Of a stretch of DNA of 25,424 nucleotides, positions 703 to 23,603 are shown piece after piece. The notes under the pieces are model-generated. The model saw only the letters and a program-made list of their open reading frames with translations. It made no database searches and was not told the DNA's origin. The stretch is from IMG/VR virus record IMGVR_UViG_3300027759_000385, positions 1 through 25,424 of that record; one strand, given 5' to 3'. This DNA comes from a virus. How positions within the stretch are numbered: the first letter of the stretch is position 1; the number at the start of each line of letters is the position of its first letter. The position numbers and the translations under genes are program-made.

Positions 703-1137
703 ATGGCAAAATTATACAATCAACAATCAGTGGCAACTAACAAAGCCACAACAGCTCAAACAAGTTCTAGTTTTACCTACAGAGGATTTAGCTCTAATGA
801 AGTAAAAAATAACTTTAAACTCTATGATATCAATTTAGTTAAACGAGATTTAATGAATCATTTTTATATTCGTAAAGGTGAAAAATTAGAAAATCCTAAC
901 TTTGGAACTATTATTTGGGATATGCTGTTTGAAAATTTCACACCCGAAATTAAAAAAATGATCACAGAGGATGTGCAACAAATTATTAATTACGATCCAC
1001 GAGTTAAGGTTAATTCGCTGACTATTGATACTACAGATATGGGAATCCGTATACAAGCAGATGTAGTTTATTTGCCCTTTAATATCAATGAGCGTATGAC
1101 TTTTGACTTTGATAAAAAGAATAATATTGTTAACTGA
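703..1137 (+). CDS. gp25: Baseplate wedge protein gp25 (gp25/GPW-like)
   Basis: This 144-residue protein is close in length to T4 gp25 (about 132). After a Ser/Thr-rich N-terminus of about 28 residues comes a compact alpha/beta domain typical of the gp25-like lysozyme-fold family (PF04965). Its marks are 'KGEKLENPNFGTIIWDMLFE', then 'QQIINYDPRVKV' with the conserved (E/D)PR turn at residues 98-100, and a closing beta-hairpin. In T4 and related contractile injection systems gp25 sits in the wedge core, touching gp6 and gp53 and the first sheath ring. The fold resembles lysozyme, but the family is structural. Its position between spike and gp6 fits this role. The start at 703 has a good Shine-Dalgarno sequence; the stop is TGA, whereas all other complete genes here end in TAA. 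Confidence 0.93.
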   Translation: MAKLYNQQSVATNKATTAQTSSSFTYRGFSSNEVKNNFKLYDINLVKRDLMNHFYIRKGEKLENPNFGTIIWDMLFENFTPEIKKMITEDVQQIINYDPRVKVNSLTIDTTDMGIRIQADVVYLPFNINERMTFDFDKKNNIVN

Positions 1138-4100: not shown

Positions 4101-4578
4101 TAGCGATAGTCTAAGAATAAGTTTTGGTAGTGCCCTAGGAGAAATTAAATCAATTAGCGATGAAATCATTTATCATCCTGTAAACTACAAAGTATTATTT
4201 GGATCAACAGCTGAATATGCCCTTCAAGCACAGTTTAAAGTAGTTAAAAACCCTAACAAAACAATCAATGATAATGATTTAAAGGTAAGAATTGTTTCTG
4301 CTATCAATGATTTCTTTGACGTTGCTAATTGGGACTTTGGAGATAGATTCTATCTAGGTGAATTAATCACTTATATTACCAATGCAGTTAGTCCGGATCT
4401 AAGTAACTTAGTAATCGTTCCAAGACAGCCAACACAGAGTTTTGGTAGTCTTTTTGAAATTCAAAGCGCCACAGATGAAATATTTGTTAGTGGAGCAACA
4501 GTAGATGACATTGTTATTGTAACTGCAATCTCGGCATCAGAGATTCGTGTAAGTGCATCAAATATTGTATCATCATAA
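1180..4578 (+). CDS. gp6: Baseplate wedge protein gp6 (baseplate J-like), enlarged
   Basis: The N-terminal ~110 residues match the gp6/J-like pattern: a helical block with 'YPEDFNDYIESSEYLALID', then repeated aliphatic helices and 'NFIELASRRESVLRIARML'. Residues ~338-366 hold the J-like signature 'FADGVYGNLPQGPFRVYYRT'. The segment beginning 'RMITAEDYN' at ~430 is the usual following motif in which successive sub-sequences are joined. Near the C-terminus 'LKVRIVSAINDFFD..NWDFGD.FYLGELITYI' matches the dimerising end of gp6, and 'FGSLFEIQ' closes the fold. gp6 dimers form the inner ring linking the six wedges around the hub. At 1,132 residues it is far longer than T4 gp6 (about 660). The extra sequence lies mainly between ~470 and ~980 and has no clear signature. 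A large J-family wedge protein of another myovirus lineage is the only serious alternative. Confidence 0.87.
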   Translation: MTTTTRQTNLIINQDWTRIYQTFKNADFKSYDFENLRRVIITYLRENYPEDFNDYIESSEYLALIDAIAFLGQSLAFRIDLASRENFIELASRRESVLRIARMLSYNAKRNVASKGLLKFDTVSTSEALLDANGKNLARQTIIWNDPTNSNWKEQFVAVLNAAMADNTEFGRSQGNSTIQGVPTEQYRFRTANRDIPIFSYEKNVAGRSMPFELVSTAFKGSEEIYEEPPVPGNQIGFVYRNDGKGTSSPNTGFYFMFKQGSLELADFSVAAPTTNEKVSVDANNINNDDVWLFSLASNGAQQDQWTKVSALAGNNIAYNSIEKNIRNIYAISTKNNDRIDLVFADGVYGNLPQGPFRVYYRTSNGLSYSILPNEMRGININIPYVSKSGTRQTLSISMSLKYTVSNSVPAETVESIRTKAPAQYYTQNRMITAEDYNLAPLTSSQDILKVKAVNRTSSGVSRNFDIIDASGKYSSVNVFADDGLIYKQESEKSLAFKPINRIDSVNFIRQSIEPLFTSTGVYNYYFTKYDKILFTDNNTTWTQITNDVNESTGYFLNAIDLTLQKVGGYTTNTLKYVTAGSLIKFVPPAGKSFKRGELVTTNVLDPDQTDRMWTKIIRVVGDGTNANRGVLSTGKGPIVFNDVIPTGAIAARIVPKFVNNLPDALETQIVNLCAENKNFGLRFDLTTSTWKIITAPNIDLINAFALGKAGDTTNNNVDTSWLLSFTKEADEYKIRVRILNYIFGSLEQNRFYYDSGQKIYDSKTGKVIKDQIRILGINPKPTDTAPIKESLIFEVDDSIKFEDGFQSSEEVQIAFADRDDDGIIDNPDAFEQIVGSDQDLKYLFFVENKDTFGNVVYSYFDNSQEVIKIRQQENAVSVTDFNDGDLVYFYDSAEDRVKRVDYTSNSFILEPTYNANIGRSRLNFQYIHNANVDRRIDPSVSNIIDVYLLTKSYDNSFRKYLSGGLSTKPEAPNSDSLRISFGSALGEIKSISDEIIYHPVNYKVLFGSTAEYALQAQFKVVKNPNKTINDNDLKVRIVSAINDFFDVANWDFGDRFYLGELITYITNAVSPDLSNLVIVPRQPTQSFGSLFEIQSATDEIFVSGATVDDIVIVTAISASEIRVSASNIVSS

Positions 4579-4580
4579 TC

Positions 4581-4584
4581 AAGG
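4581..4584 (+). promoter_or_regulatory. Ribosome binding site for the giant structural gene
   Basis: AAGG followed by TATAAGAA lies 8 bases upstream of the ATG at 4593, in the 14-base gap after gp6, and supports that start. Confidence 0.55.
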
Positions 4585-4592
4585 TATAAGAA

Positions 4593-7500
4593 ATGGCAGA
4601 TCAAATTTTCCCTCAAAGCGGACTTCCTATTAGAAGAACCGTTGACCTATTGCCTCAGGTATTTAAAACAGAAACCAATGATAAATTTATGGCTGCTGTG
4701 GTTGATCCTTTGGTTCAACCTGGTGTTCTACAAAAAACAACAGGGTATATTGGTCGTCGTTGGGGGAAAACATATAATAGTTCTGACATTTATCTTGATG
4801 ATGACACTACATTAAGAAGCAGATATCAACTTGAGCCGGGCGTGGTAATTAAAAACGAGCAAGGTAATGTTGAGAATTTTTATGACTATATTGATTTTAA
4901 AAATCAATTACAGTTTTTTAACAACTATAATGAGCGTGATGATAAAATCACCAGCCAAGAGCATTACAGCTGGACTCCTCCGATTGAATGGGATAAGTTT
5001 GTAAACTTTCGTGAATACTACTGGGTTCCTAGCGGACCTCCCAGTGTAAAAGTTTTAGGCCAAGGCAACGACATTGTTAGCACGTACAGAGTAAGACAAG
5101 GCACAACGTCTACTTGGATTTTTTATCCTGATGGATTAACAAATAATCCTACAATCACTCTTTATAGAGGACAAACTTATAAATTTAATGTTAATAGTCC
5201 TAGAGAAGGTTTCTTTATTAGAACTGCCTACGATACCGGCAGTTTAAAATATAGACCAGAACTTCCTTATATTCCAAATCAACTAGCAGTATATGACGGC
5301 AAGTTGTGGAGGGCCAAAACTTACGTTAACGCCAGTGTTGATGGAACAATTACGGAAGGACCGGACTGGGAAATAGTTGAAGATAGTGTACAAACATCTA
5401 AGTTTGATTACTCGTCAGGGATCACTAATAACGGTACAACCAATGGTACAGTTACATTTGAAGTTCCTTTTGATTCCCCTGATATACTTTATTATCAAAG
5501 TGCAATTAATCCTGATAGATTTGGTAGATTTTTAATTCAAGATATTGACAGCAATACCAGCATTGATATCGATAAAGAAATCACAGGAAAAGAAACCTAT
5601 ACAAGTAGCAACGGAGTTGAATTCACCAACGGGCTTATTGTAAGATTTGGTGGAAATGTCACTCCTAAAAAATACGCAAAGGATAATTGGTTAGTTGAAA
5701 AAGTTGGGAGATCTATCGAATTAATTAAGTTCTCATCTTTAGAAGTTCCAATTATCACCAGTCAAGTCCCAGAAGTTATTTTTGATAATACAGGATTTGA
5801 TACTGATCCCTTTGATGATGCCACAGCTTACCCCGGGGAAAAAGATTATATTACTATTTGTAGGGCCAGCATTGACAGCAATCCTTGGTCTAGGTATAAT
5901 CGTTGGTTCCATAAATCTACATTAGAACAAGCCCATAAACTTAACGATAGTGATTTTGAAGCCGGTGATAGTTTTAGAGCCAAGCGTCCAATTATTGAAT
6001 TTAGACCCAACCTACAATTATTTAATCACGGAAGTGTTGCTAAAACTCCTGTTGATTTTATAGACACATTTACTACTGATGTATTTTCAACAATTGAAGG
6101 CAGCGAGGGTTATAGTATTGACGGTGAGTTTTTATATAACGGTGCAAGAATATTAGTAATTGCTGATACTGATACATTAGCAAATAATAAAATATATCAA
6201 GTTAGTTTTATTACTCACAACAATCGTAAACAAATAGCATTAAAACTTGTAGACGATTCTGAACCTTTGCTAGGCGAAGGAGTGTTGGTAAGATCTGGCA
6301 ATGCAAATAAAGGCTTGATGTATTATTTCAACGGAACAAATTGGATAAAAAGTCAAGACAAAACTAAAGTAAATCAACGTCCGTTGTTTGATATCTTTGA
6401 CGTTAACGGAATTAGTTTTGGTAATTCAGATTCTTATCCAGTTAGCACGTTTCTTGGAACTCCAATTTTAGAATATAAGATTGGTAACAGTGTTGCTGAC
6501 AGTGAATTAGGTTTCAGTTTAGATTATCTAAACATCGATAATGTTGGAGATATACAGTTTAAATTTAATCTTGACTCTGACTCATTTACCTATTCATTAA
6601 ATCAACAAACAGTTACAGTTAATCTAAACACTGGATTTTATAGATTTAATCCTTTAGATGATTTTGGAAATTCGTGGACTACAACAGACGCTGAGTATCT
6701 GCAACCAATTTTAGATAGTAAGATTATTACAGAAGTAACAACTTCCGTAACACTAACAACAGTAAATTGGGAATTATTCAATGATGCTGAATCTAAAATT
6801 TTATTTTATTTAAATGGCATACATTTTAAAGAAAGCTACACACGAGTAGAAGGAACATTTACGTTTGCAAATAATTTTGCTGTCAATGATGTATTGTCAG
6901 TTAAAATTTTTACAAACTTAGATCCTGATCAAGGATATTATGCAATACCACACGGACTTGAAAAAAATCCGTTAAACACAGAATTAAAAACTTTCACATT
7001 AGGGCAGGCTATCGATCACCTTAGTTTTGCACTCGATGTTGATTCTAGATTCAGTGGAATTTATCCCGGCAATAGTAATCTTAGAAACATAGACGGATAT
7101 CAAACCAACGCTATAAGATTTTTAAAACATTCCGGAGTAGCCCCTCTGGCTATTGATGTTCTTTGTGACAAAAATACAAATCTTATCAAAGCTCTAAGAT
7201 ATAATTCTAGATCTTATTCAACATTTAAAAATGAATTTATTACAAGAATAACAGAAACAATGCCTGAAAATAATATTGCAGACTTTGTAGATACTGTTAT
7301 TTCTAATATGGGATTAGCCAAAGATATATCAAATCCTTTCTCCGGAACTGATATGATCGGCAGTGGCGCCCATACTGACATCGACTATACTGTTGAGGAT
7401 GAAGGTATTAAAGTATTTGCTCTAAGTCAAAAATTTAATTTAACAGATCTTAGCGATAGAGCAGTTTATGTTTACTTAAATGATATTCAACTTATTAACG

Positions 7501-10500
7501 GATCAGACTATACGTTTGACGACACTTTTGGTTTTGTAAGATTGTCAGTGACATTAACAGAAGGCGATTCTATCAAGATAAAAGAATATGTTTCTACCGC
7601 CTTTAACTATATTCCTTATACTCCTACAAAATTAGGTTTATATAAAAAATATCTACCACAGAAATTTCTTGATGATACATTTCAAACACCTAGAGATGTA
7701 ATTCAAGGTCACGATGGCAGTATCATTACTGCATTTGATGATTATAGAGATGATGCTATTTTAGAATTAGAGCGTAGAATCTATAACAATATCAAACAAG
7801 AATACAATCATACATTATTTGACATAGATGCAATCTTTGGCGGATATTACGGAAATGCACTCTATACCAAACAAGATTTAGATGCAATTGTTGCTCCAGA
7901 CTTTTTACGTTGGGTATCTAATACAGATATAGATTATACAAATAATGATTTGTACTTTGACAGACAAAATAGTTTTACCTATACCTATAGTAATATGACA
8001 GACCCTACAGGTCTAAAAAATCTTCCAGGTTACTGGAGAGGTGCATATCTATGGTTTTATGATACTTCACGTCCACATACCTGTCCGTGGGAAATGTTAG
8101 GATTTAGTGAAAAGCCTGTATGGTGGGAAAGCGAATATGGACCGGCACCATATACTTCTGGTAACTTAATACTATGGGAAGATATTAGTCAGGGTATTAT
8201 TCGTCAAGGTCCACGTGCAGGCACCTATGATCGATATGCTAGAAAATCAATATTGAGTCACATTCCTGCCGACGGCGATGGTAAATTATTAAGCCCGTTG
8301 GATTCTGGTATGGCTACAAACTATACTTTGGTTAACAATAAGGGAGATTATAAACTAGGAGATATTAGCCCTTCGGAATTTGCCTGGAGATCTAGTTCAG
8401 AATGGCCATTCTCTGTTATAGTAGCATTATCATTATTAAAGCCTTTTGAATTTATCACTGACAATTTTGATAAGTCTAGAATGACTGTTAATAAATTAGG
8501 TCAAACGGTTTTTAGTGATACAGGAATATTTGTTAAACTGTCAGACATGCAAGTTCCTACAGTGGGTAAAACCAAAGTATCTGGATTAATATCTTTTATT
8601 TCTAGTTATATAAAAAGTAAAAATTTAGATCCCGAACAGTTAATAACACGTATTAATAATTTAGATGTTAAGATATCATCTAGAATTTCTGGATTTGTAG
8701 ATCAAACTGAACAAAAATATTTGTTAGACAGTAAAAATCCTAGCTCAACATCAAGTAGTATCTATGTTCCTAACGAAAACTATGACATTATTTTTAATGT
8801 TAGTTCCCCAATTGCTAGTCTTGTTTATAGCGGAGTCTTAATTGAAAAACTAGCAGAAGGTTGGAAGGTAAGAGGATATGATAACCAATTATCGTATTTT
8901 AATTATTTTGAACCTATTGCCAGCAGTACAGATCCGTTAACTAGTGTTGGCGGAGTTAGTGCAAAATTTTATGATTGGGCCCCAGATAAACTTTACAGCA
9001 ATGGAGATATTGTTAGAACTCAAAATGTCTATTATCGTGCTTTAAAATCTCATACCAGCACTAGCACATTTGATAAAGCATTATGGAAGATTTTACCCAA
9101 GTTACCCGTGGTTGGTGGCGTGGATGCTTATTTTAGAAAAACATTTAATAAACTTAAAACTAAAAAAATGTATTATGGGACAGTTTTAACAACTGTACAA
9201 GATGTTGTAAATTTTATGTTAGGTTATGAAGCCTATTTAAAGTTTATAGGGTTTAATTTTGATCGTTACAACTCAGAAACACAAACAGCATACAACTGGC
9301 AAACTAGCTGTAAAGAGTTTTTATTCTGGACAAAACATAACTGGGCCGTAGGCAGCTTATTAACACTAAGTCCTAGTGCTGAAGAAGTTGATGTAAACAT
9401 ACTAAGCGGTGTTCCAGATAATTTATTTGACAGTTTTTATGACTACGAAATTTTTAAAAGCGACGGCGCTCCACTATTACCTATATTCTTAAATGTTAAG
9501 AGAGATTTTCAAAAGGTTGCTGTTAGCACAGTGAATACCAACGACGGTATATATTTCTTAAAATTAAATTACGTTTTAAAAGAACACGTTGTATTGTTTG
9601 ACGATCGAACAGTATTCAATGATGTTATATATGACAAGACTACCGGGTATCGCCAAGAAAGAATCAAGAGCCGAGGATTCCGCACAGTTGACTGGGACGG
9701 AGATTACACTAGCCCAGGATTCTTGTTTGACAATGTAAACATTCAGCAATGGGGTCCTTATACTGATTATCGATTAGGAGACATTGTATCTTATAAGTCG
9801 TACAATTGGGTAAGCATACAAAACCAACAAGGTTCAGAAACGTTTGATGATACTGTTTGGTCAAAGTTAGACACTGATCCTAAGAAAGGCCTAGTTGCTA
9901 ATTTTGATTATAGAATTAATCAGTTCCAAGACTATTACGAATCTGATGCAGACGGTCTAGGCTCTAGTCAACGTGATCTAAGTCGACACGTTATAGGTTA
10001 TCAAACTAGAGAATATCTACAAGCCATGGCTGAAGATAATGTTAGTCAGTTTAGAATCTATCAAGGATTTATTAGAGAAAAAGGAACAGCTAACTCTGTT
10101 ACTAAAGTATTTGAAAAATTAAGCAGAACCGACAGCGGTAGTATTGAACTAAATGAAGAATGGGCTTTCCGTGTTGGTAGACTTGGCGGCACCGCGCAAT
10201 CAATAGAAACAGAATTTAGAATTCACAAAAACGATTTAAAATTAAATCCGCAACCTATTCTACTAGCACCGACTGACACGGCCACTGATGTATTAGATTT
10301 ATATCTTCGTGTACCAGTAAATGATTTTACAATAGCAACAGCTCCTTTTAATAGGGATGTAAATCCTGTTAAAAAATATACATTAACTCCGAGAATTGCT
10401 GGATATGTTAGTGTATTAGATGTTGATTATATTCTTCCTACAAGAGATGATATTTTAAAACTTGATATTACTAAGTTTGAAGAAAATACACAAGTTTGGA

Positions 10501-13500
10501 TTACCTTTGAAGAAAATTCGTGGACAGTATTACGATACAATATTGAAAAATTATTATTCTTAACAGATTTAAATGTTAATAAGACCAGAGTAGAACTTGT
10601 GGTCAACAGACCACACGGACTAAGTGTTGGAGATATTTTTGGTATTAGAAATGTGCAAAATCTTCAAGGCTTTTATAAAATAACCGAAATTCCTAATGTA
10701 AATGCCTTGGCGTTTCAACTATCTAAAGATGCTAAAGATCCTAAGTGGGAGCCAAGCACAGTGATAAATCTTGAATTGTTTAATGAAGCAAGATTTTCAT
10801 CTTATCAAAGTTTAGACCTTGACAAGATAGCTGCCCTTACAGACGGTTCTAAACTTTGGATCGATAAAAATGAAACTAATAGATGGGAAGTTGTAGAAAA
10901 ACAAAGTCAGTTTAAGGTCACAGATCTTGCAGAATACGGAATATCTACCCCTATTAATAACGGTAAGTCTGTAGTATATTCTGATACCTTGGCACAGATT
11001 ATATCGTCAATGCCTGGCAGTAACATGGTAGTGGCTTATCTAGAAAGAGCCGAAGGACTTAAACCGTTCCAAACATTATTAAAACCAAATAATATAAGCA
11101 GCGCAGTTGATAAAGTGTTCGGTGAAACACTAGCAATTAGTCCCGATGGACGTTGGCTTGCAGTTGGATCTCCAAATGCCAGCGGTGTTAAATCAGATTA
11201 CCAAGATATTTTTGTTCCATCAGCTTCTTACTCCGAAGGAGATATTGTATTATATCAAGGCAGATTGTGGAGAGCTAAAACAGATATCGTTGCCGACGGT
11301 AGTACAATAAATCTAGCCAATGACAATTGGGAAACAGTAACAATAATTACGGCCAATGATCAAGGAGCCAACTCCGGCTACCAAAAACAAGGTGCTGTTA
11401 CAATGTATGAATGGAGCGGCCAAAATTGGGTAGAAAAATTTACCTTTGTTAGTCCGCGCCAAGATGCTAATGAAAACTTCGGTGAAAAAATCTCACTTGG
11501 TGTAGATTCCGGAAATTATTATATGGCAATTTCTGCACCCGGAGCACTTAACGAAACTGGTAGAGTATATCTTTACAAGTATGCTCCTATTGTAGAAGAT
11601 GCATCTCAGACAATTACATTATCTGTTACAGTAGGCCCACCTCAAAATTCTGATACAGGATACAAGTATTATATTAATGATGAATATCGTCCTGGTCTAA
11701 CATTAGAAGTTGGTAATACATATATCTTTGATCAAACTGATTTAAGCAATGTTTATTTCCCTAATCCTGTAGAAGGAACAGTTACAAATAGACATCCTAT
11801 TAATTTTAGCTCAGATGATATTAACGGTACACTAGGTAGTGGCACCTTATATACAACCGGAGTTACCTATTATCTAGACAATAGAGCAGTTACTCAATCT
11901 CAATACATATCTAGTTTTGATGTAGCTACAACTAGATATGTTAAGGTAGTGGTAACAGAATCAACAGCTGGTGTTTTTTATTACTTCTCTTCAGCATTGC
12001 CATTAATGATGGGTAATTCTATAATCAAAAAATATCCAACAATTGCTAAAGAATGGCAAATTGATCAGAATCAAAATTACAAAGGTGTTTATAACGCTAC
12101 AGGTGCTACAACCTATGAAGTTGGATCTGTAGTATGGTATGACAATGCATTATGGCAATCCTTAGAAGACCAAGTTGGCGACGGAAGTACAATTACTATC
12201 AATTCAGGACAATGGCAAAAATTAGATCCTGTGAGTACACAAAGCTCTCTTCCTTCTAATCCTTCTATAAATGACATTGATGATTCCACAATAATATTAG
12301 CTGAAGGAATGTTGTCTACAGATCAGTTAGCAGAATTAGTTAAAAAAGGAGATCGATTCGGATCAAGCCTAACTATGAATAGAGACGGATCTATTTTAGT
12401 TATAGGAGCACCTTTAAGCGACGGACAATATTTTACAAATTACAGAGGCGAATGGAATGCATATCAAGAATATGCACAAGGCGATACTGTTAAACGCAAT
12501 GGATCTTATTACCAACTTGGATCCAATGGAGTTGATTCTTCTTATAGAAGTTATGGCGAAACTCCGTCTCCTTCGGGAACACCGTGGAGTTTAATAACCG
12601 TTGAATCTTCAACATCGTCTGGAAAAGTTTATATCTACAAGAAAAACGCCTACGGATTATATAATCTAATGCAGACAATTAATGCAGGCAGTTTACCAGA
12701 TATTAATGATTTGCCTATATATGAAATTGTAGCTTCGGGCGATCTGTTTGGATTTGCTATTGATGTAGATTACTCGGGAACAACATTAGTTGTATCAAGC
12801 CCTCAGGCAGATATAGGCCTACAAAATCAGGGAGCAGTTTATGTCTTTAAATACGATACAGATTCTACCATTCCTGAATACAGATTAAAACAAAAATTAC
12901 AAAGTTATGAAACTTACAACAATGAATTGTTTGGGTTTGGACTTTCAATTAGTGAAAGAACAGAACGAATTGTTGTAGGAGCAAAAAATACTCCTTACAT
13001 GCTGCCTACGTTATTTGACATTGGTCAAGGAACTAGATTTGACGGTGGCCGAACAACATTCTCAGAAGATCAGGGATATCCTGGACAAGTTTATGTTTTT
13101 GAATTAAAAGATCAAACTTATATCTTATCCGAAAAATTACAGGCTAACCTCGGGGACAACGAAGGCTTTGGTTATGCAATTGATGCTACTGCTTCTGCCA
13201 TCGTAACAGGGTCTCCTGATTATATGGTGTCTGGTATTAAAGTTGGCCGCACTAGAATTTTTAGAAAAGACCCTACAAAAAATAGTTTCACTACAATAGG
13301 CGAAGAAACTGATCTAGTTAACATTGATTTGTTAAAGAGCATTTCTTTATACGATGATGAAAAAAATGTTAAGCTAGCAGACGTTGATATTATTGACACA
13401 AATAAATTTAAAATTCTAGGCTCAGCTGAAGAAGAAATTAAATTTAAAACACCTTATGATCCTGCAACATATACCAACGGAATAGATCAAGTTGTTGTAG

Positions 13501-16500
13501 ATGCAGACCAAGCATGGTTTGAAAAAAATGTAGGAGCGTTATGGTGGGATTTAAGTAAAGCAAAATGGGTATCACATGAGCAAGGAGATATTGCATACCG
13601 ATCAGGTATGTGGAATCAATTAGCACCGGGTGCCTCTATAGATATCTATGAATGGGTAGAAAGTCCAGTATCTCCAACGGAATGGAATAAACTTGCAGAC
13701 ACTGTAGACGGATTGGCCAATAATATATCAGGCCAGCCGGCATACTCTAACGCTGCCTATAGTATCAAGAGATTTACTAATTCGGCAACAGGTCTTCAAT
13801 CAAGTGCAAAGTATTATTTCTGGGTAAAAAATAAAACGGTTATCCCACAGGGGACTCCAGGCAGAAAGATTTCTGCGGCAAACATTGCATCATCAATAGT
13901 TAACCCTATTGCTGAAGGTGTTCCAATTATTGCAATTATTGATAAAGATAAGTTTCTTGCTTATAATTTTGATTCAGTAATCAAAGGAAACTCCGCGCTA
14001 CTTAATATTGAATATTATAAAGCAGAGAGAACTCCAAACGTTATCCATACAGAATATCAATTGCTAACAGAAGGACAAGCATCGAGCTTGCCTAGCGAAG
14101 CTTTAGAACAAAAATGGATAGATAGCTTGGTAGGATTTAATCAATCAGGTAATCCAGTTCCGGACCCAACACTGCGTCCTAAACAGAGATATGGATTAGA
14201 ATTTAGACCAATACAAACTATTTTTGTAAACAGGGCAACAGCCTTAAAAATTGTTATTGATAGAATTAATACTATCCTGACAACAAAACCATTTGGTGAT
14301 CTAATTGATTTTGAATACTTAAACAAAATAGATCCTCTTCCTAATGCTTCTTTAAACTTATATGATGTATCCATTGATACCTATGTAGAATTATCAGAAG
14401 TTGGTATTGTAAGGGTAAAACCTGCTACCTTATCTGCAAATGTTGTAGATGGTATAATTGATACGATTGATGTTATCGATGCTGGATTTGGTTATAGAAC
14501 TGTGCCACCAGTGGTAATTACCGGTGACGGCATTGGAGCAAAAGCAGAGGCAGTGCTAGATAATCAAGGACGAATAAGTTCGGTTACTGTATTACAGCAA
14601 GGAAGAAAATACACAACAGCAGATGTTTCTGTACGTAGTTTTTCTGTACTGGTAAAAGCGGACTCTACATTTAAAAATTATTGGGCAATATATTATTGGG
14701 ATAGTGTGCGCGAAGGATTTTTTAAATCTAAAGTGCAGGCATATAATACAACCAACTATTGGAACTACCTAGATTGGTATGCAACCGGATTTAATTCTAC
14801 AACTAGAATTGTCAGAGAAATTCCTAGCATTTTTCAAGAAATAAATTATTCTTTTGAAATAGGTGATGTATTAAGAATTCGAGAATATGCCAACGGTGGA
14901 TGGGCATTGTTACAGAGGGTAGCAGACGGAACCGGAAGTATTCTATCTAATTATGAATTAGTAGGAAGACAAAATGGAACGATCGAAATAGACAAAGACG
15001 TATACAACGTAAAAGTCTATGACTATATTGCCACGTATGATGAAGAAGTCTATGATAATCAACCAACTAGAGAATTAAGAAATATTTTAAATGCTGTAAA
15101 GTATAATATTTTTATTGACGATTTAGATGCCGAATGGAATAAGTTATTCTTTACTAGCATGAAATATGTGTTCTCTGAACAACTATATGTTGATTGGGCT
15201 TTTAAAACCAGCTTTTTAAATGCCGTACATAACGTAGGCGATTTGGACCAACGTCCAAATTATAAAAATGATAACTTGTCTAGTTTCCAAAGATATCTAG
15301 AAGAAGTAAAACCTTTTAGAACTACTATTAGAGAATACACAAGTAGATACACAGATATAGATCATCAAGGTGCAGCTATAACTGACTTTGATGTTCCACC
15401 TAAGTACGATAAGCAAAATAAACAGATATTGCCAGTGTTGTCTAACTCTTTAGAATTAGATGCATACCCTTACAAATGGTGGAAAGATAACAATGGATAT
15501 GAAATAATAGATATTCAGTTGTCTAACTCAGGCGGAGATTATAAAACTCCACCTAAGGTTTATATTACTGGCGATGGCATAGGAGCTACGGCTCAAGCCT
15601 ACATATCTAACGGTAAGGTATCTGGAATTAAAATGTTAACCACAGGATCGGGATACACTGTAGCCGCTGTTGGATTGATTGGCGGAAATGCTTCTTCGAC
15701 AAACATCGCTAAAGCATCTCCAATACTAGGCAATGGTAAAGTTAGATCGTTTAATTTAGCATTGCGATTTGATAGAATAACCAAAGACGGATCATATTCA
15801 AACTATCAATACGAACAGACGTTTACCGCTGACGGATTTACCGCAATATTTGATTTAAATTATCCTCCTACAAGAGACAAGACCAAGATATCTGTGACTA
15901 TCAACAGTGAAATAATATTAGATAGTGATTATTCTTTAACATTCTATATGTTAGAAACTGATACTTACGAATTGTTAAGAGGAAAATTAAAGTTAGGATC
16001 TTTACCAACAGCAGGCGATGTTGTTACAATTTCCTATGAAAAAGACGATTCTGTTTTAGATGCAGTTGATAGAATTAACAAGTATTATAGCCCAACAGCA
16101 GGTATGCTAGGCAAAGAAATAAATCAACTAATGACAGGAATTGACTTTGGCGGCGTACAGATCCAAGGCACTACTTTTGACGTCAGCGGCGGCTGGGATG
16201 CTCTTCCTTGGTTTACTGATACTTGGGACAGTGTGGAATCTAATAACGATTTTCACTACATTTCAGACGGAAGTACAAATTATGTAACCCTTCCAGAAGC
16301 ACCTGCACAAGGTCAACGAATCTCCGTATATCTAAAACGTGTAGGTGATGGCATTGTTCGCAGCATTGATACTTTAGATTCAGCCGGAGCACCGAGAGTT
16401 GTATTTGATCCCGGAAAACCTGTTCCAGAAACAGTCCGTATTGATGATCCTAGTTTTGTTGTTTTTCCGGACGGATCCACAAATTGGGACTCAACAATAA

Positions 16501-18845
16501 TATTAAATCCTCATGCTCAAATGCCAACATTTATCGGTGACGGTGTAGCTAAAAATGTTGAAATTGGCCAATACATTACAGTCAATGCTGGCGATACTTT
16601 GATATTTAGGCCGTTTGACAGCGATGGTACAGTTAATATTACTGACATTAATATTATTGATACAAATCTTTCTGGAGGAAGTCTCAGTGCAGTTAGCGGA
16701 GCCTATATAACAGCTACCGGTACAATGGCTGAAGACATTAGCATAGATGGCGGAAAATTTATTGGACCAGATCAAGTGCCTGCCCCAGAAGAAAATATTC
16801 CTGGACAGGTTTTAGAAAGTGTTAGTATTAAAGTATTTCACACAGTCCAAACTGGAGCAACTCCGCTGCAATCAAAAATTGTTAACGGTAACGGCATTAC
16901 TAAAAATTTCAAGATAGGATTAGATATATTAGAATCTTCATCTTTGATGGTATATCTTGACAAGGTTAAATGTGATAGTACTGACAGCACATTAACATAC
17001 ATTATTGATTATAATGCTAACGAAGTAGTTTTTGTAGATGCTCCTCCTGTAGGCAGTGTTGTTGAAATTTTAGCTATTGGCGTTGGCGGTGCTGCACTAT
17101 TAGACTATCAAGAATTTGAAGCCGACGGAGAAACTTCTAATTTCTTAACAAAAGCAAATTACACAGACACTACTAGTGTGTTAGTAACAGTAGATGGAGT
17201 GCAGGTTGATGCATTGTTTATTAACAGTACCGATGTAACTGATATAACAGGTAAGACTTTGATTCAATTTGCTAATCGTCCCGAGCGTAGACAAATTGTA
17301 AAAATTGTTTGTCTAGGAGCATCTGCTGATGTTGATTCTAGTCAGCAATCTGTAGTACGTGTAAATCAACAAGTTTTAATATTTGACGGAAGTACTTTAA
17401 GTTATGATCTTGATAAATTTGTAAATTTACAAAGAGCTAGTGCTACTGGATCAGTACTAGTTGAAGTTAACGGAATTAAATTAACAGGCCCCGAAACTGA
17501 ATTTGTTACCTATGATGGTACAAATAATGTTATTGTAATTTTAAAAGATCCACTGCAACCAACAAATACTGCTACTCAGCAAAATATTGAAGTTTTTGTT
17601 AACAATGAGCAAATAAGATATATTTTAGATTATGTTTATGAAGGTAACAATAATACTATAACTGTATCTACAGAAGTATTAACAGTAGGCGATGAAATCA
17701 AAGTTGTTGTAGATGTTAGCAGTCAATATACGTTTGATAACAATAATATTGTATTAGCCGGAACAAGTTTTGTAGAAAATGATAGTACAACTACATTGCA
17801 ACAAGGCGATGCTATCACGGTCACTTGGTTCAGTGAGTACCCAAGCATGAATATTATCAGTGACGAATATTCCGGTGGCAAATCTAGATATCAACTTTCT
17901 AGAGAACCAATTAGTGCAAGTTATATTTGGGTATATGTAAATGGACAACGATTAACTCAGGAAAAAGATTATGAAGTTTCCATTCCTAGAAGTTTTGTTT
18001 ACTTACAACAGCCAACAGTATTAACAGATACAATTAAGATTGTACAGTTTGGAAATTACACAAGAAGACAAAGTTTAGGATTTGAAGTGTTTAAAGATAT
18101 GCTAAACATACATCATTTCAAACGATTCAGTATAGACAAATCAGTTACCTTAGTTAATGATTTATATTATTACGATCAGGAAATTTCCTTAACAGACGCT
18201 TCTGGATTATTTGATCCTATACCATCGAGAAATATTCCAGGAACTGTTTATATCAAAGGCGAACGTATAGATTATTATGTTAAAAACGGAAATATATTAT
18301 CTCAATTAAGAAGAGGAAGTTCTGGTACTTCAATTGCAGAAATATACCTTGCTGATACTCCTGTAGTTGATGTTAGCCGAGTTGAGAGCTTACCGTATAC
18401 TGAGGAACAGGAAAGATTAGATTTTGTCAGCGACGGAAGCAGTTTATTAATAGGTCCGCTATCTTATGTTCCTTTGCTCAGCGAAAAAACTTGGACTAGA
18501 AATACAATTCCGGTCGAATTTGATACTTGCGATCAAATAGAAGTCTTTGTTGCAGGACGTCGTCTTCGCAAGGATGCTGTCATAGTCTATGATCAAACTC
18601 TAAATATAACAAGTCCTCAAGCAGACGTTGAAGTTGAGCCTGAATTTACAGTTGACGGCACAAATCCTTATATTAGATTAACTGACATAGTTCCTGCAGG
18701 AACACGTATTACAATCATAAGAAAACTAGGAAAAGTTTGGTATGATAGAGGAGAAAGTTTAGCCAGCTCGGGTAAAACACTGCTTAAAAATCTAGGAGCA
18801 ATCCCAGAATTTTTAAAACAAAAGAGCACCGAGCTGCCTGAATAA
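4593..18845 (+). CDS. Giant multidomain virion structural protein (4,750 aa), probably baseplate- or fibre-associated
   Basis: One uninterrupted frame of 4,750 codons, over 500 kDa. No signal peptide or membrane segment is seen, and Cys is very rare (about seven by eye). In order: an N-terminal block (1-145) ending in aromatic 'NFREYYWVP'; a cupredoxin-like module with an insert (171-319); a block with 'SNPWSRYNRWFH' (~430); two 'vYvND'-type beta modules (~740 and ~960); a mixed region with 'DTSRPHTCPWEML' and helical 'FMLGYEAYL..WTKHNWAVGSL' (~1100-1610); a segment with 'YQGFIREKGTANSVTKVFE' (~1825); an FG-GAP propeller (~2145-2893); two 'GDGIGA' modules (~3289-3347 and ~3637-3697) flanking a helical block with 'VDWAFKTSF' (~3535); and seven more 'vYvNG' modules to the C-terminus. 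It sits where T4-type genomes carry gp7/gp8, so a wedge or peripheral baseplate role is inferred. Several blocks resemble very large virion proteins of marine phages, recalled from memory. Enzymatic motifs were not recognised. Confidence 0.8.
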   Translation: MADQIFPQSGLPIRRTVDLLPQVFKTETNDKFMAAVVDPLVQPGVLQKTTGYIGRRWGKTYNSSDIYLDDDTTLRSRYQLEPGVVIKNEQGNVENFYDYIDFKNQLQFFNNYNERDDKITSQEHYSWTPPIEWDKFVNFREYYWVPSGPPSVKVLGQGNDIVSTYRVRQGTTSTWIFYPDGLTNNPTITLYRGQTYKFNVNSPREGFFIRTAYDTGSLKYRPELPYIPNQLAVYDGKLWRAKTYVNASVDGTITEGPDWEIVEDSVQTSKFDYSSGITNNGTTNGTVTFEVPFDSPDILYYQSAINPDRFGRFLIQDIDSNTSIDIDKEITGKETYTSSNGVEFTNGLIVRFGGNVTPKKYAKDNWLVEKVGRSIELIKFSSLEVPIITSQVPEVIFDNTGFDTDPFDDATAYPGEKDYITICRASIDSNPWSRYNRWFHKSTLEQAHKLNDSDFEAGDSFRAKRPIIEFRPNLQLFNHGSVAKTPVDFIDTFTTDVFSTIEGSEGYSIDGEFLYNGARILVIADTDTLANNKIYQVSFITHNNRKQIALKLVDDSEPLLGEGVLVRSGNANKGLMYYFNGTNWIKSQDKTKVNQRPLFDIFDVNGISFGNSDSYPVSTFLGTPILEYKIGNSVADSELGFSLDYLNIDNVGDIQFKFNLDSDSFTYSLNQQTVTVNLNTGFYRFNPLDDFGNSWTTTDAEYLQPILDSKIITEVTTSVTLTTVNWELFNDAESKILFYLNGIHFKESYTRVEGTFTFANNFAVNDVLSVKIFTNLDPDQGYYAIPHGLEKNPLNTELKTFTLGQAIDHLSFALDVDSRFSGIYPGNSNLRNIDGYQTNAIRFLKHSGVAPLAIDVLCDKNTNLIKALRYNSRSYSTFKNEFITRITETMPENNIADFVDTVISNMGLAKDISNPFSGTDMIGSGAHTDIDYTVEDEGIKVFALSQKFNLTDLSDRAVYVYLNDIQLINGSDYTFDDTFGFVRLSVTLTEGDSIKIKEYVSTAFNYIPYTPTKLGLYKKYLPQKFLDDTFQTPRDVIQGHDGSIITAFDDYRDDAILELERRIYNNIKQEYNHTLFDIDAIFGGYYGNALYTKQDLDAIVAPDFLRWVSNTDIDYTNNDLYFDRQNSFTYTYSNMTDPTGLKNLPGYWRGAYLWFYDTSRPHTCPWEMLGFSEKPVWWESEYGPAPYTSGNLILWEDISQGIIRQGPRAGTYDRYARKSILSHIPADGDGKLLSPLDSGMATNYTLVNNKGDYKLGDISPSEFAWRSSSEWPFSVIVALSLLKPFEFITDNFDKSRMTVNKLGQTVFSDTGIFVKLSDMQVPTVGKTKVSGLISFISSYIKSKNLDPEQLITRINNLDVKISSRISGFVDQTEQKYLLDSKNPSSTSSSIYVPNENYDIIFNVSSPIASLVYSGVLIEKLAEGWKVRGYDNQLSYFNYFEPIASSTDPLTSVGGVSAKFYDWAPDKLYSNGDIVRTQNVYYRALKSHTSTSTFDKALWKILPKLPVVGGVDAYFRKTFNKLKTKKMYYGTVLTTVQDVVNFMLGYEAYLKFIGFNFDRYNSETQTAYNWQTSCKEFLFWTKHNWAVGSLLTLSPSAEEVDVNILSGVPDNLFDSFYDYEIFKSDGAPLLPIFLNVKRDFQKVAVSTVNTNDGIYFLKLNYVLKEHVVLFDDRTVFNDVIYDKTTGYRQERIKSRGFRTVDWDGDYTSPGFLFDNVNIQQWGPYTDYRLGDIVSYKSYNWVSIQNQQGSETFDDTVWSKLDTDPKKGLVANFDYRINQFQDYYESDADGLGSSQRDLSRHVIGYQTREYLQAMAEDNVSQFRIYQGFIREKGTANSVTKVFEKLSRTDSGSIELNEEWAFRVGRLGGTAQSIETEFRIHKNDLKLNPQPILLAPTDTATDVLDLYLRVPVNDFTIATAPFNRDVNPVKKYTLTPRIAGYVSVLDVDYILPTRDDILKLDITKFEENTQVWITFEENSWTVLRYNIEKLLFLTDLNVNKTRVELVVNRPHGLSVGDIFGIRNVQNLQGFYKITEIPNVNALAFQLSKDAKDPKWEPSTVINLELFNEARFSSYQSLDLDKIAALTDGSKLWIDKNETNRWEVVEKQSQFKVTDLAEYGISTPINNGKSVVYSDTLAQIISSMPGSNMVVAYLERAEGLKPFQTLLKPNNISSAVDKVFGETLAISPDGRWLAVGSPNASGVKSDYQDIFVPSASYSEGDIVLYQGRLWRAKTDIVADGSTINLANDNWETVTIITANDQGANSGYQKQGAVTMYEWSGQNWVEKFTFVSPRQDANENFGEKISLGVDSGNYYMAISAPGALNETGRVYLYKYAPIVEDASQTITLSVTVGPPQNSDTGYKYYINDEYRPGLTLEVGNTYIFDQTDLSNVYFPNPVEGTVTNRHPINFSSDDINGTLGSGTLYTTGVTYYLDNRAVTQSQYISSFDVATTRYVKVVVTESTAGVFYYFSSALPLMMGNSIIKKYPTIAKEWQIDQNQNYKGVYNATGATTYEVGSVVWYDNALWQSLEDQVGDGSTITINSGQWQKLDPVSTQSSLPSNPSINDIDDSTIILAEGMLSTDQLAELVKKGDRFGSSLTMNRDGSILVIGAPLSDGQYFTNYRGEWNAYQEYAQGDTVKRNGSYYQLGSNGVDSSYRSYGETPSPSGTPWSLITVESSTSSGKVYIYKKNAYGLYNLMQTINAGSLPDINDLPIYEIVASGDLFGFAIDVDYSGTTLVVSSPQADIGLQNQGAVYVFKYDTDSTIPEYRLKQKLQSYETYNNELFGFGLSISERTERIVVGAKNTPYMLPTLFDIGQGTRFDGGRTTFSEDQGYPGQVYVFELKDQTYILSEKLQANLGDNEGFGYAIDATASAIVTGSPDYMVSGIKVGRTRIFRKDPTKNSFTTIGEETDLVNIDLLKSISLYDDEKNVKLADVDIIDTNKFKILGSAEEEIKFKTPYDPATYTNGIDQVVVDADQAWFEKNVGALWWDLSKAKWVSHEQGDIAYRSGMWNQLAPGASIDIYEWVESPVSPTEWNKLADTVDGLANNISGQPAYSNAAYSIKRFTNSATGLQSSAKYYFWVKNKTVIPQGTPGRKISAANIASSIVNPIAEGVPIIAIIDKDKFLAYNFDSVIKGNSALLNIEYYKAERTPNVIHTEYQLLTEGQASSLPSEALEQKWIDSLVGFNQSGNPVPDPTLRPKQRYGLEFRPIQTIFVNRATALKIVIDRINTILTTKPFGDLIDFEYLNKIDPLPNASLNLYDVSIDTYVELSEVGIVRVKPATLSANVVDGIIDTIDVIDAGFGYRTVPPVVITGDGIGAKAEAVLDNQGRISSVTVLQQGRKYTTADVSVRSFSVLVKADSTFKNYWAIYYWDSVREGFFKSKVQAYNTTNYWNYLDWYATGFNSTTRIVREIPSIFQEINYSFEIGDVLRIREYANGGWALLQRVADGTGSILSNYELVGRQNGTIEIDKDVYNVKVYDYIATYDEEVYDNQPTRELRNILNAVKYNIFIDDLDAEWNKLFFTSMKYVFSEQLYVDWAFKTSFLNAVHNVGDLDQRPNYKNDNLSSFQRYLEEVKPFRTTIREYTSRYTDIDHQGAAITDFDVPPKYDKQNKQILPVLSNSLELDAYPYKWWKDNNGYEIIDIQLSNSGGDYKTPPKVYITGDGIGATAQAYISNGKVSGIKMLTTGSGYTVAAVGLIGGNASSTNIAKASPILGNGKVRSFNLALRFDRITKDGSYSNYQYEQTFTADGFTAIFDLNYPPTRDKTKISVTINSEIILDSDYSLTFYMLETDTYELLRGKLKLGSLPTAGDVVTISYEKDDSVLDAVDRINKYYSPTAGMLGKEINQLMTGIDFGGVQIQGTTFDVSGGWDALPWFTDTWDSVESNNDFHYISDGSTNYVTLPEAPAQGQRISVYLKRVGDGIVRSIDTLDSAGAPRVVFDPGKPVPETVRIDDPSFVVFPDGSTNWDSTIILNPHAQMPTFIGDGVAKNVEIGQYITVNAGDTLIFRPFDSDGTVNITDINIIDTNLSGGSLSAVSGAYITATGTMAEDISIDGGKFIGPDQVPAPEENIPGQVLESVSIKVFHTVQTGATPLQSKIVNGNGITKNFKIGLDILESSSLMVYLDKVKCDSTDSTLTYIIDYNANEVVFVDAPPVGSVVEILAIGVGGAALLDYQEFEADGETSNFLTKANYTDTTSVLVTVDGVQVDALFINSTDVTDITGKTLIQFANRPERRQIVKIVCLGASADVDSSQQSVVRVNQQVLIFDGSTLSYDLDKFVNLQRASATGSVLVEVNGIKLTGPETEFVTYDGTNNVIVILKDPLQPTNTATQQNIEVFVNNEQIRYILDYVYEGNNNTITVSTEVLTVGDEIKVVVDVSSQYTFDNNNIVLAGTSFVENDSTTTLQQGDAITVTWFSEYPSMNIISDEYSGGKSRYQLSREPISASYIWVYVNGQRLTQEKDYEVSIPRSFVYLQQPTVLTDTIKIVQFGNYTRRQSLGFEVFKDMLNIHHFKRFSIDKSVTLVNDLYYYDQEISLTDASGLFDPIPSRNIPGTVYIKGERIDYYVKNGNILSQLRRGSSGTSIAEIYLADTPVVDVSRVESLPYTEEQERLDFVSDGSSLLIGPLSYVPLLSEKTWTRNTIPVEFDTCDQIEVFVAGRRLRKDAVIVYDQTLNITSPQADVEVEPEFTVDGTNPYIRLTDIVPAGTRITIIRKLGKVWYDRGESLASSGKTLLKNLGAIPEFLKQKSTELPE
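5103..5549 (+). other. Cupredoxin-like module 1 of the giant protein, with nested aromatic module
   Basis: Residues 171-319 read as a small cupredoxin-like beta-sandwich: 'PTITLYRGQTYKFNVNSP' opens it, and 'ITNNGTTNGTVTFEVP' followed by 'DILYYQSAINPDRFGRFLI' closes it. Between the halves, 5250-5388 encodes a CBM5/12-like aromatic module ('NQLAVYDGKLWRAKT' to 'PDWEIVEDS'), which looks like a domain inserted in a loop. The usual copper-ligand loop C-x2-H-x2-M-x-G aligns with S303, N306, R309 and G311, and the upstream His position with E205, so no copper site is expected. The assignment is from motif reading only. Confidence 0.5.
8970..9105 (+). other. CBM5/12-like aromatic module 2 of the giant protein
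   Basis: 'YDWAPDKLYSNGDIVRTQ' followed by 'YYRALKSH' and a closing 'ALWKIL' match the short three-stranded ChiC/CBM5/12-like pattern: 'Y..GDIV', an aromatic pair, then W near the end. It is followed directly by a helix-rich segment. Carbohydrate binding is possible but not shown. Confidence 0.45.
9747..9872 (+). other. CBM5/12-like aromatic module 3 of the giant protein
   Basis: 'QQWGPYTDYRLGDIVSY', 'YNWVSIQNQ' and 'FDDTVWSKLD' give the same small aromatic beta-module pattern as module 2. It precedes the conserved-looking 'YQTREYL...YQGFIREKGT' segment. Confidence 0.45.
11217..11342 (+). other. CBM5/12-like aromatic module 4, inside the propeller
   Basis: 'PSASYSEGDIVLYQGRLWRAKT' in two halves with a closing 'NDNWETVT' repeats the pattern of the N-terminal module; 'LWRAKT' is identical to that in module 1. 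It lies within the first propeller blade, between 'LAVGSPNASG' and the strand 'GAVTMYEW'. Confidence 0.5.
11607..12026 (+). other. Cupredoxin-like module 2, inserted in the propeller
   Basis: 'YKYYINDEYRPGLTLEVGNT' with 'YIFDQTD', then 'NRHPINFSSD', 'GTLYTTGVTYYLDN' and 'AGVFYYFSSALPLMMG' match a cupredoxin-like module common in marine phage structural proteins. The first His is kept (H2401), but the ligand loop usually written Y-Y-C-x2-H-x2-M is F2465, A2468 and L2471 here. It lies between propeller blades 2 and 3. Confidence 0.5.
12078..12227 (+). other. CBM5/12-like aromatic module 5, inside the propeller
   Basis: 'YKGVYNATGATTYEVGSVVW' then 'ALWQSLEDQVGDGST' and 'GQWQKLD' carry the same layout as modules 1 and 4, including a G-S/T-[TI]-rich loop before the last Trp. 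It directly follows the second cupredoxin-like module. Confidence 0.45.
12441..12599 (+). other. CBM5/12-like aromatic module 6, inside the propeller
   Basis: 'YRGEWNAYQEYAQGDTVKRN', 'SYYQLGSNG' and 'GTPWSLIT' follow the same pattern, lying between the blade-3 FG-GAP strand and its 'GKVYIYKK' strand. Confidence 0.45.
14457..14633 (+). repeat. 'GDGIGA' module, copy 1 in the giant protein
   Basis: Residues 3289-3347 read I-D-x-G-x-G-Y-x3-P-P-V-V-I-T-G-D-G-I-G-A, then 'AEAVLDNQGRISSVTVLQQG'. It shares the core ITGDGIGA with copy 2 at 15501-15683. This is a short beta-repeat of unknown function seen in many phage virion proteins. Confidence 0.6.
15501..15683 (+). repeat. 'GDGIGA' module, copy 2 in the giant protein
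   Basis: Residues 3637-3697 carry 'YKTPPKVYITGDGIGATAQA' followed by 'NGKVSGIKMLTTGSGYT', paralleling copy 1 about 350 residues earlier. The DNA of the shared core differs at several third-codon positions, so it is not a recent duplication. Confidence 0.6.
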
Positions 18846-18852: not shown

Positions 18853-19518
18853 ATGGAACAGAAAAAAACAAGTGAACCGACTATGAAACACCAAAAACCG
18901 CAGGAAAATCAACGCCCTAACGAGTCTACAGGATGGCACTTTCAAGGCCACATCAAAATTTTTGATCCTGAAACCAAAGAAGTTTTTATTGATAAACGCA
19001 ATGCTATCCACTACGAAAATATGAGTGTAGCAATGGTTAATAGCATGTCGAATCAAGGGCAGGGCTGGATCTATCAAATGGCATTTGGCAGCGGCGGAAC
19101 TACTGTTGATCCTACCGGTTTAATTACATACTTAACTCCAAATACTATTGGAGTTAATACAGGATTATACAATCAAACCTATGCTAAAACTGTTGATCAA
19201 AACGCTACAGACAACGTAGATCCAACAAGAAATAAAATGGAAATACGCCATGTCAGCGGTGCAACCTATAGCGATATTGTTATTAGTTGCTTGTTAGATT
19301 ATGGCGAGCCTGTAGGTCAGCAAGCATTTGACAACAGTCAAGATATGAACAGCAGTTTTGTATTTGATGAACTAGGTTTAAAGAGCTATAATCCTAACGG
19401 AGAAGGAAAATTGTTAACTCATGTGGTTTTCCACCCTGTTCAAAAGTCGTTGAATAGATTACTTCAGGTAGACTATACAATACGTGTACAGAGTTTAACT
19501 GGTTTCACTGAGGTCTAA
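18853..19518 (+). CDS. Unrecognised phage structural protein, 221 aa
   Basis: I do not recognise the family with certainty. The first ~30 residues are charged, Gln/Pro-rich and probably disordered. The rest looks like a compact beta-rich domain: 'GHIKIFDPETKEVFIDKRNA' opens with a strand-turn-strand, followed by 'MAFGSGGTTVDPTGLITYL', a Thr/Asn-rich middle, and a C-terminal 'DELGLKSYNP..EGKLLTHVVF' leading to 'DYTIRVQSL'. This style is common for small baseplate or fibre-attachment proteins of marine myoviruses. It lies 7 bases after the giant gene and 2 bases before the first fibre gene, so a connector between baseplate and fibres is a reasonable inference, no more. It does not resemble T4 gp8 by eye. 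No Shine-Dalgarno sequence precedes 18853; an in-frame ATG at 18883 is an alternative start that would remove 10 residues. Confidence 0.75.
   Translation: MEQKKTSEPTMKHQKPQENQRPNESTGWHFQGHIKIFDPETKEVFIDKRNAIHYENMSVAMVNSMSNQGQGWIYQMAFGSGGTTVDPTGLITYLTPNTIGVNTGLYNQTYAKTVDQNATDNVDPTRNKMEIRHVSGATYSDIVISCLLDYGEPVGQQAFDNSQDMNSSFVFDELGLKSYNPNGEGKLLTHVVFHPVQKSLNRLLQVDYTIRVQSLTGFTEV
19509..19514 (+). promoter_or_regulatory. Ribosome binding site for the collar fibre gene
   Basis: TGAGGT, within the last codons of the preceding gene, lies 6 bases before the ATG at 19521 and supports that start and translational coupling. Confidence 0.6.
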
Positions 19519-19520
19519 AC

Positions 19521-19914
19521 ATGCCATATATTGTTAATTTTACAGACAAAGAAAACAAAGTACCTATTACGGTATATGACAACACCTCCAACACAGATAC
19601 CAGTTTAAAATTTCCTGGTAGAAACGTTACAGGTTATGGACAAATTATTGCAGAAAATTTCCTTGCGGTCTTAGAAAATTTTGCAGGATCAACAGCACCA
19701 ACAAATCCTATTGAAGGTCAATTATGGTATGATAGTTCTGCAGGTGTTTTACAACTATGGGACAACACACAGTGGAAAGCAGCGTCTAACATTCAAAAAA
19801 GCACCAGCGAACCCAGCGTTGAAACAAGTCGAGTTGGTGAGCTCTGGGTAGATACTACTAATCAACAGTTATATGTATTCTCTGGATCAAGCTGGATTTT
19901 GATTGGACCTAATT
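19521..19914 (+). repeat. Fibre N-terminal domain, copy 1 of 3
   Basis: Residues 1-131 share a layout with the starts of the next two genes: 'GRNVTGYGQIIAENFLAVLE' then 'NFA', 'PTNPIEGQLWYD' and 'VGELWVDTTNQQLYVF..SSW.LIGP'. Within it a G-x-(L/I)-W-x-D...L-x-(V/L)-(Y/F/W) unit occurs twice. It is presumed to be the trimeric part that docks to the baseplate. Confidence 0.75.
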
Positions 19915-21791: not shown

Positions 21792-21800
21792 GAGATAACA

Positions 21801-23585: not shown

Positions 23586-23598
23586 AAGGAATTTGGAG
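23586..23598 (+). promoter_or_regulatory. Ribosome binding site region for the third fibre gene
   Basis: The 18-base gap holds AAGGA and then GGAG (23595-23598), the latter 5 bases before the ATG at 23604. It is the clearest Shine-Dalgarno sequence in the fibre cluster and fixes this start. Confidence 0.6.
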
Positions 23599-23603
23599 CG
23601 AAC

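Follow-up and report, generated by a model that had tools for sequence, protein, structure and literature searches.

A gene of 4,750 codons stands behind the genes of the inner baseplate wedge in the virus DNA studied here, and the question is what a protein of this size does at such a place. The DNA (referred to as the window) is a linear virus record of 25,424 bases, of which all listed genes lie on the plus strand (Table 1). We propose, with a probability of roughly 70%, that the giant protein organises the outer wedge of the tail baseplate in a jumbo T4-related phage.

The giant gene, its neighbours and its family

The first-pass annotation had described a 14.25-kb frame without a stop, and we find the same: one open reading frame from ATG to TAA with zero internal stops, encoding a protein with a calculated mass of 532.7 kDa. 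In other contigs, relatives about 73% identical over 4,720–4,728 aligned codons have unbroken frames of 4,785–4,794 aa; the nearest of them (L017, L018 and L058) keep intact frames of this same length in codons. The retrieved IMG/VR loci contain 139 complete ORFs carrying the conserved core (2,492–6,190 aa, with a median near 4,550), a count in which some contigs appear twice across scans. After duplicate removal, 110 distinct complete proteins remained, including those of the window and of named relatives.

We compared the frame with its two nearest relatives in ten blocks of 475 codons. The dN/dS ratio is at most 0.2 wherever dS can be estimated, and synonymous change is saturated in three of the ten blocks against L058 and in three against L017, where dN is 0.13–0.23. 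This codon comparison indicates that the whole giant frame is under purifying selection. An assembly error or a fusion of neighbouring ORFs has the size of the ORF in its favour and nothing else. Independent unbroken frames, purifying selection and the cultured jumbo phages, which carry the giant as the same single gene, leave such an artefact a negligible chance. Since intact frames recur in independent contigs, mis-assembly or chance is discounted, and these comparisons refute the artefact for the family, a statement that does not extend to the window's own copy. Among 84,980 species genomes of bacteria and archaea, the giant has three matches, every one in MAG contigs, and a prophage or host gene is rejected on this ground. 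Such rarity in host genomes is expected of a lytic phage gene.

The giant had been placed next to gp6, and the locus agrees, with homologues of gp25 and gp6 both lying upstream. Of 182 related loci with sufficient flanking sequence, 180 have gp6 immediately before the giant, and all 182 have gp25 upstream. Directly downstream, 114 of 134 loci have a phrog_11259 gene. This family occurs in all eight giant-bearing jumbo genomes and in none of the four genomes of T4, V09 and the cyanophages, and its 221-aa product is a possible partner that replaces gp8.

Among the named phages inspected, we notice one clear break of the gp6–giant order. In SCTP-2, the giant (gene 140, L004:8609-29400) lies about 90 kb from gp6 (gene 239, L014:8001-11726) and follows the product of gene 141, a 3,096-aa beta-propeller-repeat protein of phrog_8401. 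The gp6 of Vibrio phage 2.275.O (L007:13572-17435) is annotated with a carbohydrate-binding module (CBM) of family 5/12, and such modules thus also enter the inner wedge protein. At the other end of the locus, the product of positions 1–699 is repetitive and beta-rich, is cut by the window start, and is by its sequence probably the needle end of gp5.

Positions 19521–25424 hold three consecutive genes of fibre-like proteins (756 aa, 594 aa and, truncated at the window end, at least 607 aa). An N-terminal domain of some 130 aa is homologous in all three, which suggests that they may bind to sites of a common type. The first of them also contains a Collar domain, together with a match to Gp10_C below threshold.

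The giant matches PHROG 10938 ("virion structural protein") with an E value of 0 and 1080 bits over four stretches, covering profile positions 21–2478 in four pieces. PHROG 10938 is found in eight of eight jumbo genomes and in zero of four from T4, V09 and the cyanophages. It is filed under 'head and packaging', a label that can mislead automatic annotation of the giant. All named jumbo relatives inspected possess the giant: RaK2 (ORF070, 3,326 aa), XbC2 (3,339 aa), GAP32 (GAP32_230, 3,341 aa), CBB (CBB_236, 3,340 aa), Vibrio phage 2.275.O (3,771 aa), SCTP-2 (gp140, 3,807 aa), PA5oct (gp355, 3,857 aa), Atu_ph07 (gp180, 4,449 aa) and Phosso (4,555 aa). The giants of RaK2, GAP32, CBB, PA5oct, Atu_ph07 and SCTP-2 show the same core and order, the same position after gp25 and gp6 (SCTP-2 excepted) and a phrog_11259 gene in the genome. 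With its 4,750 aa, the window's giant is longer than those of the named phages (3,326–4,555 aa), owing to extra CBM-like, FG-GAP and Ig/T7-like modules, and its core is about 20–49% identical to theirs.

The named phages among the matches listed are jumbo phages of 284–490 kb, except two short partial records, and on this basis the window is probably from a jumbo phage. A scan of IMG/VR confirmed at least 588 stretches as relatives of the giant. By its sequence, the giant adds a member to a catalogued, poorly characterised family of giant virion proteins. Such a protein is not unprecedented: the named jumbo relatives inspected have it, and the same slot holds an analogous giant in cyanophages.

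Relatives of the giant are found in virions. CBB_236 was detected there by mass spectrometry with 21 unique peptides and 7.72% coverage (PMC5259590). In phAPEC6, the 381.9-kDa 'hypothetical protein' gp245 gave 17 virion peptides at 7.6% coverage and is numbered right after gp244, a 131-kDa baseplate wedge protein (PMC7247149). We assign gp245 to the giant family by position and mass, without a sequence test. PA5oct gp355 is marked ESI-MS/MS by a note in its record. A very large virion or baseplate protein beside gp6, as first suggested, is supported by the family annotation and by the virion mass spectrometry of relatives.

Table 1. Features of the window; residues are numbered along the encoded giant protein.
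Feature	Residues	Positions	Strand	Evidence
gp5-like gene end		1-699	+	weak match to gp5 (baseplate hub and tail lysozyme), E 0.001
gp25-like inner baseplate wedge protein		703..1137	+	PF04965, E 3.9e-8
gp6-like inner baseplate wedge protein, 1,132 aa		1180..4578	+	phrog_10646, E 3.5e-294; phrog_219, E 1.5e-21
Giant virion protein, baseplate-wedge position, PHROG 10938	4,750 aa	4593..18845	+	ORF; profile match; relatives
221-aa protein, phrog_11259		18853..19518	+	E 1.9e-71
Conserved core, N-terminal	15-160	4635..5072	+	110-protein alignment
Conserved core, small gap 727-733	410-936	5820..7400	+	alignment
Conserved core, most conserved block (PWEMLGF etc.)	994-1456	7572..8960	+	alignment
Conserved core	1521-1717	9153..9743	+	alignment; within model of aa 1500-1965
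Conserved core with helical K-G-T motif	1762-2096	9876..10880	+	alignment; helices in predicted model
K-G-T motif	1830-1832	10080..10088	+	K in 109/110, G in 110/110
Conserved core, small gap 3036-3046	2896-3270	13278..14402	+	alignment; model
Conserved core, 3443-3483 less conserved	3357-3639	14661..15509	+	alignment; model; ends with helical VKPFRTTIR
CBM5/12-like module 1, weak	193-270	5169..5402	+	E 3.5e-5
CBM5/12-like module 2	1432-1508	8886..9116	+	Pfam CBM_5_12; iterated profile
CBM5/12-like module 3	1691-1767	9663..9893	+	iterated profile; fold match 8fqc_P1
CBM5/12-like module 4	2181-2256	11133..11360	+	Pfam search; iterated profile
CBM5/12-like module 5	2474-2552	12012..12248	+	E 1.1e-6
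CBM5/12-like module 6	2594-2645	12372..12527	+	Pfam search; iterated profile
Six FG-GAP propeller blades	2153-2901	11049..13295	+	Pfam FG-GAP_2, E 9.2e-13; iterated profile
GDGIGA repeat modules	3243-3349	14319..14639	+	profile; source of phrog_438 'gp8' match
GDGIGA repeat module	3630-3718	15480..15746	+	iterated profile
Ig/T7-tail-like module, weak	936-1010	7398..7622	+	E 1.4e-4
Ig/T7-tail-fibre-N-terminus-like modules, four copies	3980-4328	16530..17576	+	PF03906, E 1.7e-6
Module common to N-terminal part of cyanophage gp7-slot giants	4516-4595	18138..18377	+	hhalign E 3e-8, probability 95%

Conserved core and variable modules

A core can be defined from the residues that 80% or more of the 110 aligned complete proteins share; it comprises about 2,518 of the giant's 4,750. 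Structure and sequence-profile searches of solved structures reveal no PDB match for the core fold beyond a CBM-like module. For the AlphaFold model of aa 1500–1965 (pLDDT 75), Foldseek and VIA-align return essentially the CBM5/12-like module alone, which dominated the search, and no gp7 chain is among the matches listed. The model of aa 2890–3640 (pLDDT 81) has no PDB match above Z 3.9 in the fold families listed; in BFVD, it finds its own family and repeat modules of cyanophage structural proteins only. Searched against PDB sequences, the full-length giant gave chance matches to Mcl-1 only.

The remainder of the protein consists largely of repeated modules, and their copy number varies between proteins. 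The window's giant carries six CBM5/12-like modules, six FG-GAP blades, three GDGIGA modules and five Ig/T7-tail-fibre-like modules; across the 110 proteins, the numbers range over 0–7, 0–7, 0–13 and 0–7 per protein, respectively. None of the four module types is detected by iterated profiles in the RaK2 giant, the profiles being seeded from the window's giant, so that distant copies in other proteins may escape them. The FG-GAP blades are interrupted by CBM-like modules 4–6 and one further beta-rich insert.

Most of the blocks named in the first-pass annotation correspond to these modules. Its propeller is made of FG-GAP blades (Pfam FG-GAP_2, 44.1 bits for the whole giant against a curated cut-off of 23), its aromatic carbohydrate modules are CBM5/12-like (Pfam CBM_5_12, 51.3 bits against 26.2), and its 'GDGIGA' and 'vYvNG' blocks, the latter Ig/T7-tail-like, recur as repeated modules. 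The cupredoxin-like block is left without profile support. The absence of an enzyme motif agrees with our Pfam profile searches, which find no enzyme family in the giant. The YHYH domain, by which some UniProt relatives are named, was rejected, since the giant lacks the motif and 2 of 110 relatives have it.

CBM-like sequence profiles match solved structures and reach chitinases and chitin deacetylases. In the model of module 3, model residues 215–261 (aa 1714–1760) superimpose on 8fqc_P1 of the phage Milano baseplate with a Z of 8.4 and an rmsd of 1.1 over 45 aligned residues. The tail spike chain in the baseplate structure of phage Milano has a CBM-like fold as in this model.

These modules might also point to a giant that is mainly a host-recognition protein, such as a giant tail fibre or skirt on the baseplate, rather than a block of the wedge. 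The six CBM5/12-like modules, the FG-GAP blades and the T7-fibre-like modules, with numbers varying between relatives, fit such a protein, and so do the tail-fibre-like genes downstream. However, about 2,500 aa of core are conserved even where the sugar-binding-like modules are lacking, as in RaK2 with none detected, the partnership of the giant with gp25 and gp6 is fixed, and T4-type gp7 and gp8 are missing. We consider a primary function in adsorption unlikely and favour the organiser of the outer wedge. With a constant core and modules that vary between relatives, the giant resembles a stable frame carrying interchangeable contact parts.

Relation to gp7 and gp8 of T4

In T4, gp6 is followed by gp7 and then by gp8, and the giant occupies the gp7 position. 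Like the giant, T4 gp7 (1,032 aa) sits between gp6 and the outer baseplate genes; it is present in six copies (PMC3004832). On the other hand, the giant is more than four times longer, and T4 also has gp8, gp10 and gp11. The gp7 family (phrog_964; Pfam Gp7_helical, Gp7_5th and Gp7_6th) has no match to the giant at E ≤ 1, whereas the T4 gp7 control matches phrog_964 and all Gp7 Pfam profiles. Profile-profile comparison, for which the positive control of T4 gp7 versus V09 gp7 worked, reveals no direct homology to T4 gp7, gp8, gp10, gp6 or gp53. The claim that the protein has no counterpart in T4 thus holds at the level of sequence, but by position its counterpart is gp7.

By searching whole records, we found phrog_964 in T4 and in V09, a KVP40-like phage, and in none of the eight jumbo genomes. 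The gp8 family (phrog_977) is present in T4, V09 and both cyanophages (4 of 4), and again in none of the eight. Matches to gp7 and gp8 are also absent from 19 giant-bearing IMG/VR records, one of them 453 kb long and another the 490-kb genome of Atu_ph07. Extreme sequence divergence could account for this non-detection in jumbo phages.

In cyanophages and pelagimyophages, T4 gp7 is reported to be missing and 'substituted' by the large VrlC (PMC7029224). The jumbo phages appear, from these sequence searches, to be a parallel case in which gp8 is apparently gone too. The gp7-slot giants of cyanophages (phrog_2885, 'VrlC' or 'baseplate wedge initiator') include that of ACG-2014i, with 3,494 aa, and that of S-RIM14 (L011:13110-31706), which with 6,198 aa exceeds the window's giant. 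Like the latter, they are giant and modular and lie directly after gp25 and gp6, and GDGIGA and RG..GT modules are common to both groups. They differ in having no PHROG 10938 match and in carrying the K-G-T domain at the N-terminus, whereas it is located mid-protein in the window's giant. Cyanophages also keep gp8, in contrast to the jumbo relatives, which are without detectable gp8. PHROG profile searches give no match of phrog_2885 to the giant, and the giant matches the cyanophage giants at the level of modules.

The cyanophage proteins could nevertheless link the giant to T4 gp7. The giant would then be a divergent and hugely expanded true orthologue, with the helical K-G-T domain as the ancestral gp7 core and everything else added by insertion. 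Residues 733–789 of T4 gp7, around STKG, match the N-termini of the cyanophage gp7-slot proteins (hhalign E 7e-5), and the S-RIM14 giant has a 30-residue phrog_964 motif match at 729–758 (E 3e-5). In the window's giant, the best site of the cyanophage domain is aa 1815–1843, where K-G-T is in register and the score is 22.6, the next site scoring 15.7. The motif is invariant or nearly so among the 110 relatives, its K-G being common to T4 gp7 and the giant as a weak indication, and the gene position is the same. However, the match at aa 1815–1843 is weak (E 0.002 per scanned window, over 116 such windows), T4 gp7 itself gives no match to the giant, the LP helix preceding the motif in gp7 is not recovered in the giant, and the fold search of aa 1500–1965 is swamped by the CBM-like module. 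We hold descent from gp7 to be a real possibility, with the odds clearly on the other side. Because of the weak E value, the lack of a T4 gp7 match and the CBM-dominated structure search, we do not file the giant under the gp7 family. By its position, the giant would perform the job of gp7, and sequence does not establish descent from it. A split gp7 domain, with the N-terminal 'LP' helix as one half, was a separate candidate and found no support in profile comparison.

A fusion with gp8 was also considered, since the giant has a match (E 4e-20) to PHROG 438, a family named 'baseplate wedge subunit'. T4 gp8 matches phrog_438 as well, and a separate gp8 is undetected in the jumbo genomes. However, the best match of the giant covers positions 188–262, a repeat, whereas that of T4 gp8 covers 3–86; in relatives, several unrelated ORFs contain this repeat, and no gp8 profile matches the giant. 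The phrog_438 match to the giant is the repeat module alone, the fusion is rejected, and we regard a gp8 hidden in the giant as highly improbable. The name 'baseplate wedge subunit' that PHROG 438 gives to a mobile repeat can mislead automatic annotation.

Proposed role in the baseplate

The organiser of the outer wedge remains our preferred reading. It is based on the order of gp25, gp6 and the giant, on gp7 and gp8 being undetected in relatives, on the build of core plus modules and on presence in virions. The fibre-like genes downstream, one with a collar domain, are also in favour. Counting against it are the missing profile homology to gp7 or gp8, a core without a PDB fold match, the SCTP-2 giant remote from gp6 and the PHROG filing under head proteins. 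The first-pass annotation had suggested a scaffold for an unusually large baseplate or a whisker or fibre network. We retain the baseplate protein and not the whisker network: the tail whiskers of CBB were unassignable to gene products by its authors (PMC5259590), and the family also occurs in relatives without reported whiskers, for example GAP32.

We infer that the giant is located in the baseplate and not in another part of the tail, presumably in six copies by analogy with gp7, and that it contacts gp6, binds glycans and attaches fibres. In the proposed arrangement, the core of about 2,500 residues would dock on the inner wedge ring of gp6 and gp25. The giant would take the place of T4 gp7 and probably gp8, perhaps jointly with the downstream 221-aa protein, and six copies would form an outer wedge of about 3 MDa in total. 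The variable modules, inserted into or appended to the core, would reach the baseplate rim and help hold the fibres, with the products of the downstream fibre genes attaching to the giant. We speculate that the sugar-binding-like and propeller modules at the rim make reversible contacts with host-surface glycans before contraction.

More tentatively, at somewhat short of even odds, these phages may have a distinct jumbo type of baseplate, in which the giant and its 221-aa PHROG 11259 partner replace gp7 and gp8, and gain or loss of modules on a fixed core tunes host contact. Each giant chain reaches about 0.5 MDa and, if there are six copies, they would make up about 3 MDa per virion.

This analysis adds four points: the giant consistently occupies the gp7 slot, gp7 and gp8 appear to be missing together, a partner gene goes strictly with the giant, and the core can be told apart from the variable modules. 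The giant family is widespread in environmental viral contigs, yet it is annotated merely as 'virion structural' or 'hypothetical'. The core alignment may serve structure work, and the giant may serve as a marker gene for jumbo T4-related phages. Its placement in the gp7 slot, together with undetected gp7 and gp8, gives a testable idea of how very large phages may build their baseplates.
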